This document shows positions 30,781 through 46,820 of a stretch of DNA of 48,604 nucleotides, piece after piece. The notes below the pieces were generated by a model that saw only the letters and a list, made by a program, of their open reading frames with translations, had not been told where the DNA came from and made no database searches. A program made the position numbers and the translations under genes. The first letter of the stretch is position 1. Each line of letters opens with the position of its first letter. This DNA comes from a virus: IMG/VR virus record IMGVR_UViG_3300047318_000447, positions 1 through 48,604 of that record, one strand, 5' to 3'.

Positions 30781-31086
30781 GTGACTCAGAATCAGGCTCC
30801 CGCGATCACCACCGAGCACCTCGAAGCCCTGCGCGCCTTCGCCGACACCATCCAGAGCGAGGCCTACACGGAACCCTCCGGGCCCACGTCGCGCCGCGCC
30901 CAGCGCCTGTTCGGCACGCTCGTCTTCGGATCCATCGGCTACCTCTCCGCAAGCCTCAACAATCGCCCCTCCTGGCACGAGAGCGACGACCGACGCTGGT
31001 GGCTGCTGCTGCAGGTCGTCGACGTCTACAAGGACCGCCCCGACTTCCCCGAGAGCATCCGCCCCTTCCTCGACACCTCGGAGTGA
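30781..31086 (+). CDS. Hypothetical protein upstream of integrase, 101 aa
   Basis: GTG start without Shine-Dalgarno, 10 nt after a -10 element. The protein is acidic, helical, with EHLEALRAFADTIQS, an LFGTLVFGSIGYLSASLNN hydrophobic stretch, and a Trp-rich RRWWLLLQVVDVY segment. No HTH or zinc site is visible. The ATG of the integrase follows 2 nt after its stop, so the two are co-transcribed. It may modulate integration (for example as a directionality or accessory factor), but this is inference from position only. Confidence 0.6.
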   Translation: MTQNQAPAITTEHLEALRAFADTIQSEAYTEPSGPTSRRAQRLFGTLVFGSIGYLSASLNNRPSWHESDDRRWWLLLQVVDVYKDRPDFPESIRPFLDTSE

Positions 31087-31088
31087 CG

Positions 31089-32147
31089 ATGAGTACCGAC
31101 CTGGTCCCGGCCGCCGGCCGACCCGCACCCACCCCGGCGCCCGCGTCCGGATCGGTGCCGGCGCCGCACGAGTACGACGACGAGCTGCTCGCGCGCCTGG
31201 CCGCCCTCGACGAGGCCTCCGACGCACACGCCGCCGAGCAGCGCCCCGCCAACACCGTCCGTTCCTACGCCTCCGACTGGCGCACCTGGCAGACGTTCTG
31301 CGCTGGCATCGACGTCCCGGTCACCGCCGCCACCCGCGGCACGTTGCGTGCCTTCGTGAAATGGCTGTGGGACGTGGAGCACCGGGCGCCGAGCACCATC
31401 GACCGCAAGCTCGCCGGCGTCGCCGTCACCCTGCGCGGTCCCGACTTCGGTGTCGTCGTCGACCCGGCCGCCACCGCAGCCGCCCGCCAACTCCTCAAGG
31501 ACTACCAGCGCCAGGCCGCCGAGCAGAAGGAGGCGCCGCGCGGCCGCGGCAAGGCGCCGGCCCTGCGCGTGCGCGCGCTGCGCCAGATCGTCGCCGCCTG
31601 CCCCGACGACCTGCCCGGCCTGCGCGCCCGGGCGGTGGTGCTGATCGCGTTCTCCATCGCCGGGCGCCGGCACGAGGTCGCCGCCCTCACCGTGCGATCC
31701 ATGGAGGAGGTGGAGGAGGGCCTGCGCGTGGACGTGCGGGTCTCCAAGACCCACCCCCGCGTCGTACCCGTCCCCTTCGGCCAGAATCCCGACACCTGCC
31801 CGGTGCGGGCCTGGCGGGCCTGGCGCGACGCCGCCGAACTTACCGAGCCCGACAGTGCGGCGTTCCGCGAGATCCACGCCTCCGGCTCGGTCCTGGGCGG
31901 CCTCACCCCAGCCGGCATCGGCACCGTCATCACCGCCGCCGGCCAGCGCGCGGGCGTCAAGCTGCGCTTCACCGGCCACTCCGCGCGCTCCGGAATGGCC
32001 ACCGAGGCGCGCCGGGCCGGCAAGGACCGCAAGGCCATCGCCGCCATCACCGGCCACAAGCCCAACAGCCCCGTGCTCGACGGCTACATCCAGCTCGCCG
32101 ACGAGTTCGACGAGACCGACAACGCCCTGTTCGGGATCGGCCTGTGA
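31089..32147 (+). CDS. int: Tyrosine site-specific integrase
   Basis: A 352-residue protein, ATG 31089 just after the previous stop with a weak GGAG. The core-binding domain spans about 50-145 (NTVRSYASDWRTWQTFC). The catalytic domain has Arg193/194 in AGRRHEVAAL, Lys220 in RVSKTHPR, H297-x-x-R300 in GHSARSG, His323 in TGHK and nucleophile Tyr333 in LDGYIQL, so all catalytic residues are present. It integrates the phage by strand exchange between attP and attB. The attachment site is not recognisable here; flanks of this gene are the place to look. Confidence 0.9.
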   Translation: MSTDLVPAAGRPAPTPAPASGSVPAPHEYDDELLARLAALDEASDAHAAEQRPANTVRSYASDWRTWQTFCAGIDVPVTAATRGTLRAFVKWLWDVEHRAPSTIDRKLAGVAVTLRGPDFGVVVDPAATAAARQLLKDYQRQAAEQKEAPRGRGKAPALRVRALRQIVAACPDDLPGLRARAVVLIAFSIAGRRHEVAALTVRSMEEVEEGLRVDVRVSKTHPRVVPVPFGQNPDTCPVRAWRAWRDAAELTEPDSAAFREIHASGSVLGGLTPAGIGTVITAAGQRAGVKLRFTGHSARSGMATEARRAGKDRKAIAAITGHKPNSPVLDGYIQLADEFDETDNALFGIGL

Positions 32148-37707: not shown

Positions 37708-38274
37708 CTACTCCAGGGTGTAGGCGGTGAGGATGGCGGTGTACCGGTCGTGGGCGTCGCTGTGGGGTGCGCCGAGGTTGTCGAGGGTCTGCAGGGCGGT
37801 GCGGGCGGCGGCGGTGATGGCGGTGCGGGTGGCCCAGGTGGGGTCGGTGACGGGGATGGTGCCGGCTCGGGCGCATTCGGCGACGTAGGCGTCGACGCTC
37901 TGGATGGTGGCGTGGGCGGCGCGGTGTCCGGTGGCGGCCTGGTAGTACATGGCGATGCGGCGGCGGCCGCGTTGGTCGAGGAGGTGGGACCAGAGGTCGT
38001 GGTCGGAGGCGCGGCGGGTCCAGCCTGCGGGGAGGGTGGCGGTGCGGAAGAGCGGGTCGCGGGGGTCGATGGGGCCGAGGATGAGGCCGAGGGCGCGGTA
38101 GTCGGCTTCGCGGCCGTCGAGGTCGGCGGGCAGGCGGTTGGAGTGGACGAGCTGGCGTTGGCCGGCCTTGTCCTGGGCGGCTGCTTCGGCGGCTACGGCG
38201 CCGGGGCCCATGGTGTCGGCGAGTAGGAGGAGGGTGGCGGTGGGGCCGCTGCCGGTTTCCAGCGGGTCGCGCAT
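37708..38274 (-). CDS. Hypothetical protein, first gene of leftward operon, 188 aa
   Basis: ATG 38274 behind CAGGAG. The internal block GLILGPIDPRDPLFRTATLP, W-T-R-R-A-S-D-H-D-L-W-S-H, and RRRIAMYYQAATGHRAAHAT is a pattern found in many phage genomes without assigned function. A compact, mostly helical domain follows. The candidate leftward promoter lies upstream at 38425-38453. Likely an early gene product. Confidence 0.6.
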   Translation of the reverse strand: MRDPLETGSGPTATLLLLADTMGPGAVAAEAAAQDKAGQRQLVHSNRLPADLDGREADYRALGLILGPIDPRDPLFRTATLPAGWTRRASDHDLWSHLLDQRGRRRIAMYYQAATGHRAAHATIQSVDAYVAECARAGTIPVTDPTWATRTAITAAARTALQTLDNLGAPHSDAHDRYTAILTAYTLE

Positions 38275-38304: not shown

Positions 38305-38380
38305 TTCCGTTTCCCCGGAACTTCGGTCTATACTGGCCACCTCGTTGGACCGTCACCAAATACTGGCGTCGGTCCTTTTT
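38305..38380 (+). promoter_or_regulatory. Promoter-attenuator cassette, copy A
   Basis: TTCCG-N6-CGGAA dyad (38305-38320), -35 TTCCGT (38305-38310), -10 TATACT (38329-38334), 18-nt spacing; start near 38341. About 6 nt later begins an intrinsic terminator: GGACCG (38347-38352) pairs CGGTCC (38370-38375), then TTTTT. A transcript of about 40 nt should result unless terminated RNA polymerase is released from the hairpin. A collinear copy lies at 44288-44363. On the minus strand the same -10 area also reads TATAGA. Confidence 0.6.
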
Positions 38381-38424
38381 GCGTTCCTGGGCGGCGTCGG
38401 AGGTGGCTCCGGCGGCGTGTCCTC

Positions 38425-38453
38425 ACCATAGACCGAATCTATTGCACATGCAA
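38425..38453 (-). promoter_or_regulatory. Candidate leftward promoter TTGCAT-N17-TATGGT
   Basis: On the minus strand TTGCAT (38453-38448) and TATGGT (38430-38425) are 17 nt apart, a good vegetative match, with start near 38418. It would drive the leftward operon that begins at 38274. The -35 and spacer lie inside operator 1, so bound repressor should block it. Confidence 0.5.
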
Positions 38454-38461
38454 TAGATTCG
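38434..38461. promoter_or_regulatory. Operator 1: 28-bp dyad with 13-bp perfect arms
   Basis: The arm CGAATCTATTGCA (38434-38446) is perfectly inverted at 38449-38461, with CA between. It is distinctly AT-richer than the surroundings and covers the leftward promoter. Its core recurs at 38516-38527. Confidence 0.75.
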
Positions 38462-38515: not shown

Positions 38516-38527
38516 TTGCATGTGCAA
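38516..38527. promoter_or_regulatory. Operator 2: TTGCATGTGCAA core, related to operator 1
   Basis: The 16-nt string TTGCATGTGCAATAGA (38516-38531) is shared with the reverse complement of operator 1. Centres of the two operators are 74 bp apart, close to seven helical turns, so two dimers could be joined on one DNA face. It lies 22-100 bp before the two possible starts of the next gene. Confidence 0.7.
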
Positions 38528-38626
38528 TAGAGAACCGGAGACACTGACGTGGACAGGACCCGAACGCGCCCCCCAGGAAGGCCCCACCCCTCGGAGCGGC
38601 GCGCACCGCCGAATCGAGGACACCGA

Positions 38627-39160
38627 GTGCCACAGCCCGAGCGAGCGAAGAACCCGAGCCAGCGCGACCAGGTCCGGGAGGCCATCGCCGCCCTGCGCGC
38701 CGGCACCAGCCCGCGCCCCGACCTCGCCGACGCCGTCGACAAGTTCTTCACCGCGGTGACTTCGCCCAGGCAGAGCGAGACGGTCCCCATGTACCTCCCC
38801 AAGGAGACCTGGCGCCGGGCCGAGGAGAAGGCGACGCAGGAGGGCCGCAAGCGGGCCAACGTGATCGAAGAGGGGTACACCGAGTTCCTCGCCGGCCGCT
38901 GGCTCCCCACGCGCTGGCCCCGGGGCCGCGTCACCGACGCCGAGGCGGGCCCCAGGATCACCGCCAGCATCAGGGTCAAGACCGACCGACTGCGCGAGCT
39001 GGAGGAGTACGCAGCCGCCAACCCCGCGCTAATCGGCTGGGAGCCCTCGCCGGCGCAGGTCGCCGCTGCATGGATCAAGCAGTACGTCGACGCGGAGCCC
39101 GTCGCCCCTCGAAGCAAAAGCCGCCAGGCTTCCAGGCCCGGCAAGTCCCAGGCCGAGTAG
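38627..39160 (+). CDS. Candidate tandem ribbon-helix-helix regulator
   Basis: From GTG 38627 (GAGGA upstream; a GTG at 38549 would add 26 low-complexity residues) the protein has 177 residues. Two segments have strand-helix-helix form: VPMYLPKETWRRAEEKATQE and GYTEFLAGRW, then ITASIRVKTDRLRELEEYAA with QVAAAWIKQYVD, as expected of two RHH units in one chain. It lies directly downstream of the twin operators. A role as their binder and as a repressor of the leftward and its own genes is inferred. Other DNA-binding or partition-type proteins are possible. Confidence 0.5.
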   Translation: MPQPERAKNPSQRDQVREAIAALRAGTSPRPDLADAVDKFFTAVTSPRQSETVPMYLPKETWRRAEEKATQEGRKRANVIEEGYTEFLAGRWLPTRWPRGRVTDAEAGPRITASIRVKTDRLRELEEYAAANPALIGWEPSPAQVAAAWIKQYVDAEPVAPRSKSRQASRPGKSQAE

Positions 39161-39245: not shown

Positions 39246-40265
39246 ATGGCAGGCCATCAGGCCGCCGGCGAAGCCGGTGGCTTCCCCCAGCACACCCAAA
39301 ACCCGCCCCCCCACACCCCCGCGGCCACGCTCGCGCCGCTGAGCGCCGAACAGCTCGCCGCCCTCCAGCGGTTGCGTGCGCCGTTCGCCGCCGAGCAGGT
39401 CTCCAGCCGACCCGAGATCACCTGCCCCGCCTGCGCGGACGGCAAGCACGGCCGCTGCGCCGAGCACGACAAGACCGTGTGCCCCGTCTGCGGAAGTTAC
39501 GTCACCACCGCGCACATCGACCTCGACTACGTCGGGCACGCCGAGATCACCGGCCGCCTCCTGGACGTCGACCCCCTCTACTCGTGGGAACCGATGGCCC
39601 GCACCGCCCGTGACCTGCCGCTCCTCGACGAGTACAACGGCCTGTGGATGACCCTGACAGTGTGCGGCGTCACCCGCTACGGCTACGGCGACGCCTCACG
39701 CCGCGGCATGAACTCCACCTCCGTGAAGGAGATCATCGGCAACGCCCTGAGGAACGCCGGCATGCGCTTCGGCATGGGCCTGGAGCTGTGGAAGCCCGGC
39801 GCCCGGGCCGCCGTCGAACCGTCCGAGGCCGCGAAGATCTGCGAGCGCCTCGACGAGAAAGCGGTGTGGAACACCCCGAGGGCCCTGGAGGAGATGCGAC
39901 GCCGGGCCCGCAAGGCCGGCGTGCTCGGCCACGTCGTGGAGAGCGCCGGATGGCGCACCATCGGCGAGGTCATCCAGGACCGCCTCGCCATGCTCGCCGA
40001 GCCCACCGCGCGAGACGCCCGCGCCGAGGGCCCGCGCGAGGTCACCGCCGCCGACGCGCTCGCCGCCAAGGTCGACGCGGGCTGGGGCAACGTCATGGCC
40101 TGCGAGCAGACCCTCGCCGAGGCGCGCCACCGCCACCTCGCCGACACCCCCCACCCCGGCGACGCGCAGCGCCGCTCATTCGCCCAGGTGCTGGGCGAGC
40201 GCATCGCGCAGTTGCGTGAGGAGCGCTCCGGCCAGGACCGGCACCCGGACGCGGAGGTGGCGTGA
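39246..40265 (+). CDS. Candidate Rad52/Sak-like single-strand annealing protein
   Basis: A 339-residue protein, ATG behind TAGGAG. An N-terminal zinc finger (CPACADGKHGRC, CPVCG) precedes the conserved core, with HAEITGRLLDVDPLYSWEP, NGLWMTLTVCGVTRYGYGD and KEIIGNALRNAGMRFGMGLE. The last block (K-E-x2-x-D/N-A-L-R-x-A-x-R-x-F-G) is the hallmark seen in Rad52/Sak-type annealing proteins. The C-terminus is helical. It would anneal single strands in phage recombination and repair. Assignment is by pattern; ERF or RecT-like families are less fitting. Confidence 0.55.
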   Translation: MAGHQAAGEAGGFPQHTQNPPPHTPAATLAPLSAEQLAALQRLRAPFAAEQVSSRPEITCPACADGKHGRCAEHDKTVCPVCGSYVTTAHIDLDYVGHAEITGRLLDVDPLYSWEPMARTARDLPLLDEYNGLWMTLTVCGVTRYGYGDASRRGMNSTSVKEIIGNALRNAGMRFGMGLELWKPGARAAVEPSEAAKICERLDEKAVWNTPRALEEMRRRARKAGVLGHVVESAGWRTIGEVIQDRLAMLAEPTARDARAEGPREVTAADALAAKVDAGWGNVMACEQTLAEARHRHLADTPHPGDAQRRSFAQVLGERIAQLREERSGQDRHPDAEVA

Positions 40266-40570
40266 TGAGCAAGCGCAAGCCGCCGACGGCGGGGTTCACC
40301 TCGACCCTTGACGAGACGGAGTTCCTGCGGCACGGCGCGTGCCGCGGCCAGGACCCGGAGATGTTCTTCCCCGTCGGCAACACGAGCGAAGCCGCCCACC
40401 AGAGCGCCCAGGCCAAGGCCGTATGCCGGAGCTGCCCCGTCACCATCCGATGCCTGACCTGGGCGCTGGAGACGGACCAGGCCGCCGGCGTGTGGGGCGG
40501 CATGGACGAGAGCGAACGCCTCAACCTCCAAAGACGCGCCACCACGCACCGGACGGGGGCCGCGGCATGA
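40265..40570 (+). CDS. WhiB-family iron-sulfur regulator
   Basis: A 101-residue protein, ATG 40265 overlapping the previous stop, with GGAGGTG at good spacing (the GTG at 40262 is too near). The four cluster ligands Cys26, Cys54, Cys57 and Cys63 are present, and the turn motif GVWGGM at 75-80 precedes a basic C-terminus (RLNLQRRATT) that contacts DNA. WhiB proteins bind a [4Fe-4S] cluster and sigma factor region 4, changing promoter choice; phage WhiB proteins can repress host developmental or septation genes. Confidence 0.9.
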   Translation: MSKRKPPTAGFTSTLDETEFLRHGACRGQDPEMFFPVGNTSEAAHQSAQAKAVCRSCPVTIRCLTWALETDQAAGVWGGMDESERLNLQRRATTHRTGAAA

Positions 40571-43219: not shown

Positions 43220-43542
43220 GTTACGACATCTGCCTGGACATCGACACGGGCGCCGGAGAGACGGTGACGGCCCTGGAGGTCGGCAACTACACGAGCAACG
43301 TGGCGTGGATGTGGTCCCAGGCGCTGGGCCACCCACTGCGTGAGCTGGACGGCCGTGGCGCAGCGGACACCGTTGACGTCCTGACGGCCGCCGTGGCCGC
43401 GATGCGGGAGCGGGCGCAGGAGTTCCGGGCCCAGGAACCGGAGAACGGCTGGGGCGACTACCAGGGCGCCCTCGGGTACCTGGAGCGCCTGCTCGCCGGG
43501 TGCCAAGCGCACCCGGCGACGACGATTCGGATCTCCAGCTGA
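43216..43542 (+). CDS. Hypothetical protein, 108 aa
   Basis: GTG overlapping the previous stop, with AGGAGGGG upstream. The pattern SYDICLDIDTGAGETVTALE, VGNYTSNVAWMWSQALG and WGDYQGALGYLERLLAGC, with paired Trp and Tyr, is found in other actinobacterial and phage proteins annotated only as hypothetical. Probably globular alpha/beta. The next ATG overlaps its stop. Confidence 0.55.
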   Translation: MSYDICLDIDTGAGETVTALEVGNYTSNVAWMWSQALGHPLRELDGRGAADTVDVLTAAVAAMRERAQEFRAQEPENGWGDYQGALGYLERLLAGCQAHPATTIRISS

Positions 43543-44282
43543 TGGCCGGCCGGCAGGCATCCGACCACGACGTCGCCGCCGAGTCGGGGGACGCACCGGC
43601 GTGCGGGTGCTGCGAACGGGCACTGCACCGGGAGGAGCTCGGCGCCGGACGGTCGGTGTGCCTGGTGTGCGAGCGGGAGGTCGCCCACCGCCTCACCGAC
43701 GTGGAGCAGCTGTGGAAGCTGCTGCCGGCGTGCACCGCGAAGGGCAGTCCACTGTCGGACACCGGGGCCGGCTCGGCGAGCACCGGCTCGCAGGCGCCCG
43801 GCAACCTCGCCGTGTTCAGCCTCCTGGCGGGGGACGTGCCGCGCCGGCTGCAGGTGCACGAGAGGGCGTGGCGCCTCATACGGGGCACCCCCGCCCCGGC
43901 CGATCAGCCTGCGGGGCAGGACCGGCAACTGCGGGACGTCCTGGGCTACCTGCGGATCAACCTCGACTGGGCGTGCCGCACCCCGGCCGCGGACGTGAAG
44001 ACGCTGCGCGGGGATGTGCGGCACCTCGCCGCGGAGATGATGTCCGCCATCACCGGGGAGCGCGACCGGCGGGTGACGGTGCCCTACCCGTGCCCGCTGC
44101 CGGCCCTCGGCTTCGCGGACGACGACGAGAGGGCGCCCGCCTGCGGGGCGCTGCTGCGGATGTACCCCGCCGAGCGGGAGATCCGTTGCACCGGCTGCAA
44201 GCGGCGAGTACCCAGGCACCACTGGCACCGGATCGGGCTGCTCGTCGGCTCGATCACGCTGGAGGGACAGGCGGCCGCGTAG
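43542..44282 (+). CDS. Hypothetical multi-zinc protein, 246 aa
   Basis: ATG 43542 overlapping the preceding stop (TGATG). It has a zinc ribbon near the N-terminus (CGCCERALHREELG ... CLVCEREVA) and a second at the C-terminus (C-P-L ... CGALLRMYPAEREIRCTGCKR followed by HHWH). The middle is helical with LRINLDWACR and LAAEMMSAITGERDR. Two ribbon ends flanking a helical body suggest a nucleic-acid-binding protein. It closes the coupled run; cassette copy B follows immediately. Confidence 0.55.
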   Translation: MAGRQASDHDVAAESGDAPACGCCERALHREELGAGRSVCLVCEREVAHRLTDVEQLWKLLPACTAKGSPLSDTGAGSASTGSQAPGNLAVFSLLAGDVPRRLQVHERAWRLIRGTPAPADQPAGQDRQLRDVLGYLRINLDWACRTPAADVKTLRGDVRHLAAEMMSAITGERDRRVTVPYPCPLPALGFADDDERAPACGALLRMYPAEREIRCTGCKRRVPRHHWHRIGLLVGSITLEGQAAA

Positions 44283-44287
44283 AAGGG

Positions 44288-44364
44288 TTCCGCGACCCCG
44301 GAACTTTCGTCTATGCTGGCCGCTCCGACGGGCCATCACCACTTCACGGTGACGGCCCTTTTTT
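44288..44364 (+). promoter_or_regulatory. Promoter-attenuator cassette, copy B
   Basis: TTCCG-N6-CGGAA dyad (44288-44303), -35 TTCCGC (44288-44293), -10 TATGCT (44312-44317), 18-nt spacing. The terminator starts 6 nt after the predicted start: GGGCC (44330-44334) pairs GGCCC (44354-44358) and TCACC (44336-44340) pairs GGTGA (44348-44352), followed by six T. It is collinear with copy A, about 55 of 76 positions identical by my count, and a base pair has changed from A-T to G-C. Confidence 0.65.
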
Positions 44365-44393
44365 GTTGCCCGAAACCAGCCGAGGAGACGTGC

Positions 44394-44648
44394 GTGGACA
44401 CGGTCGTACACGAGGGCGAGGCGGTCGAACTGCTGCCGGGCCCCGGCGAGGGGCAGGTGCCGGCGGGGCTCGGGGGCCTGCTGTGGGAGCACGGGCCCGT
44501 CGCGGACGGGCAGGCGATGGGTGCGCCGCGGTGCGGGTCCTGCTCGGAGCGTGCGGGGGTGGCGGTGCCGTGGCCGTGCGAGCCGGTGGGTGAGGGGGCT
44601 GTCGTGACGGTGAAGCCGTGGGGGTGGACGTTTCGTCAACGCGACTGA
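44394..44648 (+). CDS. Small protein downstream of attenuator B, 84 aa
   Basis: GTG behind GAGGAG, 30 nt after the terminator T-run. Acidic, Gly/Pro-rich N-terminal part (GEAVELLPGPGEGQVPAG), then CGSCSERAGVAVPWPCE with three Cys, and a beta-like end (VVTVKPWGWTF). It is the only gene between cassette B and the long intergenic region before the replication gene. Function unknown. Confidence 0.5.
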   Translation: MDTVVHEGEAVELLPGPGEGQVPAGLGGLLWEHGPVADGQAMGAPRCGSCSERAGVAVPWPCEPVGEGAVVTVKPWGWTFRQRD

Positions 44649-45033
44649 GGGGCCCCCGCCGGCGGTTGCGGGGCTGGTCGGTGCGGCGCGAGCACCCCGA
44701 TGATCTAGTCCCTGACATTACTTTGACATGGGATGTCAAACGCTCGACATGCCGATGCCGGAGAAGGGGGCCGGGAGACGATAGGGTCGGGTTGGCTTCC
44801 GCCCTGACCGGACGAGGCGTCAACCCTGCGCGCCGAGTGCGGCAAAGGGGGCTGTGCCCGCACCCGCTCAGCGGGTAGTCTGACGCCAGCAAGCTTCCAT
44901 CACAGTCGGTGAAGCGTTGCGCAACAAGACAACTGGACATGTAGAAGGGGCCCTGACTCCCCCTCGCGGCGCGCCAACGCCTTAGTGCGAGGAGAACGGA
45001 CCCCATTCGACAACCGAGGAAAGCGGTCGTCTG
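44649..45033 (+). other. Intergenic region with operator-like repeats, no convincing gene
   Basis: Holds a hairpin just after the stop at 44648 (GCCCC...GGGGC), the GACAT repeat group at 44714-44750, a perfect short hairpin ACCCGCT-C-AGCGGGT (44862-44876), and TTGCGCAA near 44917. A possible promoter TTGCGC-N17-TGTAGA lies before 44950. No open frame with normal codon use and a start signal was found. Confidence 0.5.
44714..44750. promoter_or_regulatory. GACAT repeat array with a 19-bp dyad
   Basis: GACAT occurs at 44714, 44725 and 44746 and inverted (ATGTC) at 44733. The central pair forms TTTGACAT-GGG-ATGTCAAA (44722-44740), and direct copies are 11 and 21 bp apart, about one and two helical turns. 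TTGACA is also a perfect -35 but no good -10 follows at 17 nt. Likely a protein-binding array or operator. Confidence 0.55.
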
Positions 45034-45225
45034 ATGAGCAAGAGTACCCGTGCATCCGTGCACGCGACCAGTGGGACCCGCTACTCCGGCGTGAACATCA
45101 CACCGCCGTCGAGTCGCGGGTCCTCGTGCTCCCGCCCGCAGACGACCGCCGCCGGCCCCGAGGCTTCCCGCCGCCCGTTCCGGGCCCCGGGCTTCCGTGC
45201 TGCTCAAGGAGTGGTGATGACGTAG
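45034..45225 (+). CDS. Possible small basic protein, 63 aa
   Basis: ATG 45034 behind GAGGAAAG at a long spacing of about 10 nt. Sequence is Ser/Arg/Pro-rich and probably disordered (KSTRASVHATSGTRYSG and onward). G/C at third positions is high, about 80 percent, which supports coding, but no homologue pattern is known. A micro-frame ATG ACG TAG with AAGGAG overlaps its end. Treat as tentative. Confidence 0.3.
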   Translation: MSKSTRASVHATSGTRYSGVNITPPSSRGSSCSRPQTTAAGPEASRRPFRAPGFRAAQGVVMT

Positions 45226-45512
45226 ATACCGCTGGGCGGGGCCACCTCACACGAGGCTCCTGCCGCCCGGCCGAACAGCTGCACCCGGTGCTACCAACAC
45301 CAAGCGCCTGACGGCCACTCACGTTCACCCGCTGCGGTCTTCCGGGCTACCAACCCGAATCCCACTGCGGTGTCCCACTAGGCCCGGGTACCAGCCGGCC
45401 CCTACGGGACGCATTCACCGCCCAGCTACGGGCGGGTCCTTCATTCGGTTCCCCAACCGAAACCCACGAGGGGCTTCGTCATGCCCTCTAACTCCCGAGG
45501 ACGTACCCAATA
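45226..45512 (+). ncRNA. Structured intergenic region upstream of the replication gene
   Basis: No gene in 287 bp. Several short hairpins: GGTG-CTACCAA-CACC (45287-45301) and CGGG-CTACCAA-CCCG (45343-45357) have an identical 7-nt loop 56 nt apart; CCGCCC-AGCTAC-GGGCGG (45418-45435); TTCGGTT-CCCC-AACCGAA (45444-45461). It ends in the dispersed 17-mer at 45470. It could be a leader RNA or part of the origin. Structure is by eye only. Confidence 0.4.
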
Positions 45513-46820
45513 ATGCAGCACACCGTGCCGCGCGTCGACTCCGACGTGCCCTCCGGCACCCCTTTCAACCCGAATGTGGCCGCCGACACCCCCTCCGCGC
45601 GCCCCCGAAGCGCCGTCCGGCGCCCCTGGACGCCCGACCCGAGCCAGACCGTCGCCCGCACGACCTCCCGCCACAGCGGCCCTCGGGCCTGGCGCCGCGC
45701 AGCAGAGCGGGCCCTGGAGGCCGGCCTGGTCCCGGGTGCGAACGCCGTCACCACCGTGGTCCTCGAGGACCTCGCCCGCCGCATGGACTACAGCACGGGC
45801 CACGTCCGGTACTGCCTCGCCGACACGATGGCCTCCACCGACCTCTCCCGCTCGACCGTCACCAAGCACATCAGACTGCTGCGGTCGGCCGGCTGGCTGG
45901 CCTGGGCGGAGCACGGCTCGCTGCGCAACGTCCTGCGGGGCCTGGGCCGGCCGGGGTACGCGCCCACGGCGACGGTGTACGCGGCGACGATCCCGCCGGC
46001 GTTCGACACCTGGGCGGGCAACCGGCTCGGCGGCGTCGGATACTCCGCCCGGGTCGTCGGAGCGACGGCGCGGGGCCGGGAGCAGCGGGTCGCGGAGGCT
46101 GTGGATAACTCGTCGCGGAAGGCTGTGGACAACCCGGCTAAACGATCTTCGCGGACCCCTTCCCTTAGGGTGGTTAAGGAGGAGGGTCAGGTTCAGGTAG
46201 TAGGTGGTTCTTCTACCGCGAAGCGGCAGCGAAAGACGACCATCCTCGGCAGCATTCCCACCGCCGACGCCGTCGCCCGGGCCCGCCGGCTCGCCGCCGA
46301 GATCCGACCGCTCGTCAACTGGCTCCAGAAGGCCAGCCGCCGACAGCTGTCCTGGGTGCTCCTCGACCTGGTGCTGATGGGCTGGGACGACCAGCGGATC
46401 CTGAACTGGGTGCGCGCCGCGACCCCCTACAGCCGCTCCGGTCAGGGCGTGTGGCGGCCCCGCTTCCCCCACCGGGTCCTGGCCGCGGCCCTCCTCGGTG
46501 AGGACCAGGACGCGCGGCGCATCGCCGACCTGGAGGCCCTGACCACCGCGGCCGTCGCACCGAAGGACCACGAGGCGTGGGGTGAGGTCTGGCGGACCTG
46601 GCAGGAGCAGCTCGCCGACAGCACCGAACCGGAGCGCACGGACGAGGACCGGTGCCAGGCCCGGGCCTACGTCACCAGCGGCTCCAGCCGGGCCTGCGGA
46701 ACCCTCGCCGAGGTCACCGGGCACATCGCCGTGTACGGCCTCGACGACGCCCTCGACCTGTACGGCACCCACCTCTGCTCCCTCGCGGAGCGCATGGACG
46801 CGATCGGAGCGTACGCATGA
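45513..46820 (+). CDS. Replication initiator-like protein with internal DnaA boxes
   Basis: A 435-residue protein, ATG behind GAGGAC. Residues about 70-135 form a winged helix (VVLEDLARRMDYSTGHVRY, STVTKHIRLLRSAGWLAW), the binding domain of phage and plasmid initiators. A low-complexity linker (190-250) contains the repeated AVDN motif encoded by the DnaA boxes. The C-terminal half is helical (RQLSWVLLDLVLMGW, RILNWVRAATPYS, HRVLAAALLGEDQD). The arrangement (binding domain, origin in the linker, helical partner domain) resembles lambda O. Replication initiation is inferred; related proteins occur in Streptomyces phages. Confidence 0.7.
   Translation: MQHTVPRVDSDVPSGTPFNPNVAADTPSARPRSAVRRPWTPDPSQTVARTTSRHSGPRAWRRAAERALEAGLVPGANAVTTVVLEDLARRMDYSTGHVRYCLADTMASTDLSRSTVTKHIRLLRSAGWLAWAEHGSLRNVLRGLGRPGYAPTATVYAATIPPAFDTWAGNRLGGVGYSARVVGATARGREQRVAEAVDNSSRKAVDNPAKRSSRTPSLRVVKEEGQVQVVGGSSTAKRQRKTTILGSIPTADAVARARRLAAEIRPLVNWLQKASRRQLSWVLLDLVLMGWDDQRILNWVRAATPYSRSGQGVWRPRFPHRVLAAALLGEDQDARRIADLEALTTAAVAPKDHEAWGEVWRTWQEQLADSTEPERTDEDRCQARAYVTSGSSRACGTLAEVTGHIAVYGLDDALDLYGTHLCSLAERMDAIGAYA
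46091..46134 (+). other. Candidate replication origin: two DnaA boxes in a tandem repeat
   Basis: TGTGGATAA (46100-46108) is the exact complement of TTATCCACA, and TGTGGACAA (46124-46132) of TTGTCCACA, the Streptomyces DnaA box. Both lie in two near copies of a 24-bp unit (CGCGGAGGCTGTGGATAACT and following). The next 80 bp (46139-46225) are the least GC-rich of the gene, a possible unwinding element. Confidence 0.65.

Follow-up and report, generated by a model that had tools for sequence, protein, structure and literature searches.

Two copies of a predicted promoter-terminator unit in a virus related to Streptomyces plasmid-phages

The analyzed DNA, referred to as the window, is a 48.6-kb stretch of an IMG/VR virus record from a phage that is kin to Streptomyces plasmid-phages. 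A replication-initiator-like gene is located at 45513-46820 on the plus strand and is also present in the plasmid-phage pZL12 and related plasmids. The matches to its product comprise pZL12, three viral contigs (~50% identity) and 89 plasmids, nearly all of them from Streptomyces. The window also encodes a single-strand annealing protein (39246-40265), without a match in a protein search of the viral contigs, an integrase (30999-32147) and a WhiB protein (40262-40570). This order of replication, annealing, integrase and WhiB genes resembles that of 85-94 kb Streptomyces plasmids like pCQ3, pCQ4, pSLE1 and others. Mostly non-coding DNA of several hundred bases upstream of the replication gene is kept across divergent phages with a mean column identity of 59% (window 44860-45512; L006 9400-10000; L007 9390-10000; L008 9470-10010). 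It contains a GGGGCC...GGACCCCA pairing, shows no match in Rfam and is perhaps a structured leader or an origin.

The unit described here, copy B, lies 1.1 kb upstream of the replication-initiator-like gene, between two genes of the same strand. The upstream gene (43500-44282, plus strand) encodes Cys-rich motifs and is kept in related phages with 38-41% identity. The gene behind copy B (44394-44648, plus strand) encodes 84 amino acids and has a coding-like GC content by codon position (0.81/0.58/0.88). An AGGAG ribosome binding site was read from the sequence at 44383-44387 (plus strand). The product has no match in Pfam, PHROGs or NCBIfam, and a search of the protein in the relatives gave short weak matches only. 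A perfect palindrome, TTGACAT-GGG-ATGTCAA, is found at 44723-44739 between gene 44394 and the replication leader.

Copy B (44288-44364) reads TTCCGCGACCCCGGAACTTTCGTCTATGCTGGCCGCTCCGAC-GGGCCATCACCACTTCACGGTGACGGCCC-TTTTTT. It begins with the dyad TTCCG-CGACCC-CGGAA (TTCCG-N6-CGGAA; 44288-44303, plus strand), whose left arm occupies the -35 position with an 18-nt spacer to the -10 hexamer TATGCT (44312-44317, plus strand). Transcription is predicted to start at 44324 on the plus strand, the seventh base after the -10 hexamer, as deduced from the position of this hexamer. A predicted intrinsic terminator follows at 44330-44364 (plus strand), with a hairpin at 44330-44358 and six T at 44359-44364. 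The hairpin, GGGCC-A-TCACC (ACTTCAC) GGTGA-C-GGCCC, has a GC-rich stem of 11 positions with one internal A-C mismatch, and is separated from the -10 hexamer by 12 nt. Alone it folds at -17.9 kcal/mol, and a 58-nt segment of copy B reaches -24.4 kcal/mol (z -3.7), a value which none of 200 shuffles equalled. With a stable GC-rich hairpin and a T-run directly after the stem, copy B has the sequence features of an intrinsic terminator. The first-pass annotation had described exactly this terminator from the GGGCC/GGCCC and TCACC/GGTGA arms and T6, 6 nt past the predicted start and followed by a gene 30 nt further on. The terminator is well formed by direct reading and by its fold, the stem does begin 6 nt past the predicted start (44330 versus 44324), and the GTG start of gene 44394 lies 30 nt past the T-run. 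A simple consensus scan of the window listed neither a promoter nor a terminator at copy B, owing to the non-consensus -35 (TTCCGC, 18-nt spacer) and the interruption in the stem. We call a putative promoter from the -10 hexamer, its conservation between the copies and the relatives.

The window contains one other copy. Copy A (38305-38382) is 72% identical to copy B (44288-44365) over 76 nt without gaps (E 5e-6). It carries the exact dyad TTCCG-N6-CGGAA at 38305-38320, the -10 hexamer TATACT at 38329-38334 and a predicted terminator at 38347-38380 (hairpin 38347-38375, five T at 38376-38380), all on the plus strand. The promoter half, CCCCGGAACTTnnGTCTATnCTGGCC, is near-identical in both copies; the hairpins differ and both fold. 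The exact dyad occurs at two sites in the window, one per copy, where 0.05 are expected. Likewise, a hairpin with at least five T and a -10 hexamer 8-15 nt upstream has two occurrences in the window, against none in 60 shuffled versions. Directly upstream of copy A lies a divergent gene (37708-38274, minus strand; GC by codon position 0.73/0.57/0.93) and no gene of the same strand, so copy A is not the end terminator of an operon. Behind it follows the gene 38549-39160 (plus strand), the first gene of a recombination/replication operon. It encodes a possible DNA-binding protein without a family match and without a match in a protein search of the viral contigs.

Four related viral contigs contain one unit each, located ahead of the gene that is found behind copy A. 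Three of them (L006, L007, L008) were retrieved via the replication protein and one (L120) via the 43500 protein, so that the unit motif played no part in their selection. At the place matching the -10 of copy B, a TANNNT hexamer, as expected of a sigma-70-type (HrdB) promoter, is present in copy A and the four relatives (TATACT, TATAAT, TACGAT and TACAAT in the latter). A consensus -35 at 16-18 nt is lacking: TTCCGC or TTCCGT stands at 18 nt, and TTGACA is found in two of the six units. In all six, the distance from the -10 hexamer to the stem is 10-12 nt and the hairpin ends in T5 or T6.

This arrangement is rare, as had been claimed from copy B alone. The window and the family DNA, 985 kb in total (contigs G001-G003 covered in part), contain 78 terminator-like sites; five of these have a -10 hexamer at 10-12 nt, and all five are the promoter-terminator unit. 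One other family terminator has a -10 hexamer, at 28 nt, and the remaining ones have none. Six shuffles of the same DNA gave about 590 terminator-like sites, none with this spacing. The presence of the spacing in the relatives and its absence from the shuffles suggest that hairpin and spacing are selected. A fortuitous -10 hexamer beside an ordinary terminator would agree with the non-consensus -35 and with the lack of a listed promoter at copy B in the generic scan, but the second copy, the orthologues in four contigs and the empty shuffles make such a coincidence very improbable. The unit is real, conserved and non-random.

In a small alignment of five sequences, three of twelve stem pairs show two-sided changes that keep the pairing. 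A covariance model built from copies A and B, L006, L007 and L008, with L120 left out, finds L120 with E 9e-16. The six units represent about three lineages, since L006, L007 and L120 have TTCCGnTTGCCGCGAGG in common. Rfam holds no family that matches the unit. Searches with nucleotide patterns of the unit in viral and genome contigs returned chance matches only, a blastn search of phages and plasmids with copy B returned only fragments (E 0.2 or worse), and no convincing match was obtained with the L006 and L120 versions. The GGGCC-N-TCACC stem also occurs without a promoter in the viral contigs L010, L012 and L013; the signature is therefore the spacing to the -10 hexamer and not the stem sequence. 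In pZL12, a TACAAT hexamer with two hairpins and T5 behind it was seen; as the covariance model gives no match there, it was not counted. A separate observation concerns strong terminators of the family, where RTGYCC stands a few bases past the T-run in 13 cases with about 3 expected from other T-runs (L068, L074, L086, L090, L095, L101, L105, L110, L113, L114, L115, L006 and L007; some loci overlap).

The TTCCG dyad over the -35, also pointed out in the first-pass annotation, was recovered, and its left arm is the conserved sequence at the -35 position: TTCCG is found there in copies A and B, L006, L007 and L120. The right arm, CGGAA, is restricted to the two copies of the window and absent from the relatives; L006 and L007 have GCGAGG...CCTCGC around the -10 instead. 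The complete dyad is thus specific to the source phage. At copy B it is a possible operator or factor-binding site, and the repressor role proposed for it is plausible. A phage-specific regulator acting at each promoter as a repressor, an activator or an antitermination loader would fit this pattern.

Counted from the seventh base after the -10 hexamer to the last T of the run, the predicted RNA measures about 50 nt in L008 and about 40 nt in the other five units. Only 4-6 unpaired bases precede the stem in all six units, about 6 in copies A and B, and no ATG lies ahead of the T-run in these two copies. Such a short leader can accommodate neither an aptamer nor an alternative fold nor a leader peptide, and a transcript of nearly nothing but hairpin counts against a leader peptide or an antiterminator fold. 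A riboswitch, a T-box or a leader-peptide attenuator would account for the order of promoter, terminator and gene; with 4-6 nt before the stem, no ATG in copies A and B and no Rfam match, it is nevertheless highly improbable. Conditional termination as such, which had been suggested for copy B, is plausible, and its riboswitch and leader-peptide forms are disfavoured by the leader of about 6 nt.

Between the -10 hexamer of copy B and the GTG of gene 44394 (44318-44394) no further TANNNT hexamer is present. Because of this, the gene can be reached by read-through only, either from the copy B promoter or from the upstream operon. Some 50 nt separate the stop codon of gene 43500-44282 from the hairpin of copy B, an ordinary position for a terminator, and copy B could double as the end of this same-strand operon. 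The unit might then be a plain, unregulated terminator that lowers expression or blocks transcription from upstream. We regard this as rather unlikely, because a -10 hexamer fixed at 10-12 nt is not expected of an end terminator and, except for the 28-nt case, is missing from the other terminators of the family. Moreover, the gene directly upstream of copy A, like that directly upstream of the L008 unit, lies on the opposite strand. Most likely, the terminators of copy A and L008 serve the unit's own transcript and not an upstream operon.

At copy A and its orthologues read-through is not needed, since the gene behind the unit seems to be served by a separate promoter with palindromic operators. 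Palindromes or near-palindromes are located ahead of this gene in the window (38436-38459 and 38516-38527) and in L120 (4382-4399 and 4464-4475), of the CTATTGCACATGCAATAG type and, in relatives, of the TTGCGCGCGCAA type. They are probably the gene's own operators. The separate promoter would suit a stand-alone gene for a tiny RNA, a hairpin of about 40 nt acting in trans on RNA or protein, with read-through being incidental. Promoter, short transcript and intrinsic terminator are the usual build of a small-RNA gene, and judged by the sequence the unit has a promoter and a terminator of its own. A possibly comparable short unit in ten related phage-plasmids, with no same-strand gene just behind it, points in the same direction. 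However, neither the loop nor the few unpaired bases show conservation among the copies or the relatives, so that no obvious pairing seed is left, and the gene that begins 30 nt behind copy B has no other promoter. A tiny RNA is possible and in our view less probable than conditional read-through.

In the ten Streptomyces phage-plasmids, a -10-like hexamer was seen on the other strand, ahead of a divergent gene that is mostly annotated as DUF6011. In nine of them it is followed by a hairpin, GGCCACC...GGTGGCC, whose T-rich tail is weak (L014 2286, L016 1955, L019 1968, L020 2052, L021 2482, L022 1915, L023 2165, L024 2085 and L025 2184). Their leader is a few tens of bases long, longer than in copies A and B, and TA---T does not vary across the alignment of the nine. 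The GGCCACC unit has no match in Rfam and is a candidate for a conserved small RNA. Given the different position and leader length and the weak match to the model, no homology to copies A and B is claimed.

Our preferred reading, held tentatively, is a regulated start-then-stop cassette present in two copies in the source phage. Host RNA polymerase would start at the promoter, with its phage-specific dyad and without a consensus -35, make about 40 nt of RNA, nearly all of it hairpin, and halt at the T-run. At copy B, gene 44394 would be expressed from the cassette promoter only upon read-through; at copy A, read-through would add to the transcription of the 38549 operon. Since the leader is too short to refold or to encode a peptide, any control would require a factor loaded onto the polymerase in the promoter region or a modified polymerase, or would amount to a small fixed leak. 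The two copies, the spacing in six units, the paired changes in the stem and a coding-like gene 44394 without its own -10 argue for the cassette. Against it count the lack of a Q-type antiterminator (PF06530, PF03589) and of a pause element, the likely own promoter of the 38549-type gene, and copy B itself, for which no counterpart was found behind the 43500 homologue in L006, L007, L008 or L120. Because the two copies differ in their need for read-through, we place conditional read-through only moderately above a tiny RNA and plain attenuation.

A more specific form of the cassette would be an undescribed device of Streptomyces-type plasmid-phages. In this form, regulated promoters would have a terminator within the first 40 transcribed bases, which is passed by means of a new phage-encoded antitermination factor loaded at the promoter, with the dyad as specificity site. 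This we consider distinctly unlikely. The switch between plasmid maintenance and lytic growth is poorly understood in actinobacterial plasmid-phages. A predicted promoter whose transcript would end after about 40 nt, kept in several of them ahead of the recombination/replication operon, is a concrete and easily testable regulatory site. It could lead to an antitermination factor or a tiny RNA beyond the families tested here.

In the literature on actinophages, no description of the promoter-terminator-gene layout was found. The cassette would be a variation on known promoter-terminator logic, and this variant appears to be new. At the Q-dependent late promoters of lambdoid phages (lambda pR', phage 21), a DNA site for the factor is combined with a promoter-proximal terminator, and the genes are read only by terminator-resistant polymerase (PMC7171158, PMC6606751). 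The cassette is similar in having a putative promoter, an early terminator and genes beyond. Its phage-specific dyad is in the right place for a possible factor site. However, the Q families PF06530 and PF03589 are absent from the phage record, which may be a fragment, and none of the six units has a -10-like pause element (TANNNT) in the first transcribed bases. The hairpin is also predicted near +6-7, and the terminator of lambda pR' lies about 190 nt from the promoter. Without these two Q families and a pause element, the cassette at most works like the Q type. The IsrK locus of prophage Gifsy-1 produces from one promoter a short terminated RNA and a longer read-through RNA that reaches the genes (PMC4825925). 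The short IsrK form acts in trans by binding to the read-through form. Compared with IsrK, the cassette RNA is almost only hairpin. The put RNA of HK022 suppresses pausing and termination (PMC9378689). Both put and the cassette place a structured RNA early in a phage transcript. Put has two hairpins, in contrast to the single hairpin and T-run of the cassette, which should cause termination. In conjugative plasmids of the pLS20 type, conAn lets polymerase pass the terminators within a long mobile-element operon only if it has started at the right promoter (PMC8955417). The proposed cassette can be likened to conAn in this promoter-dependent passage of terminators.
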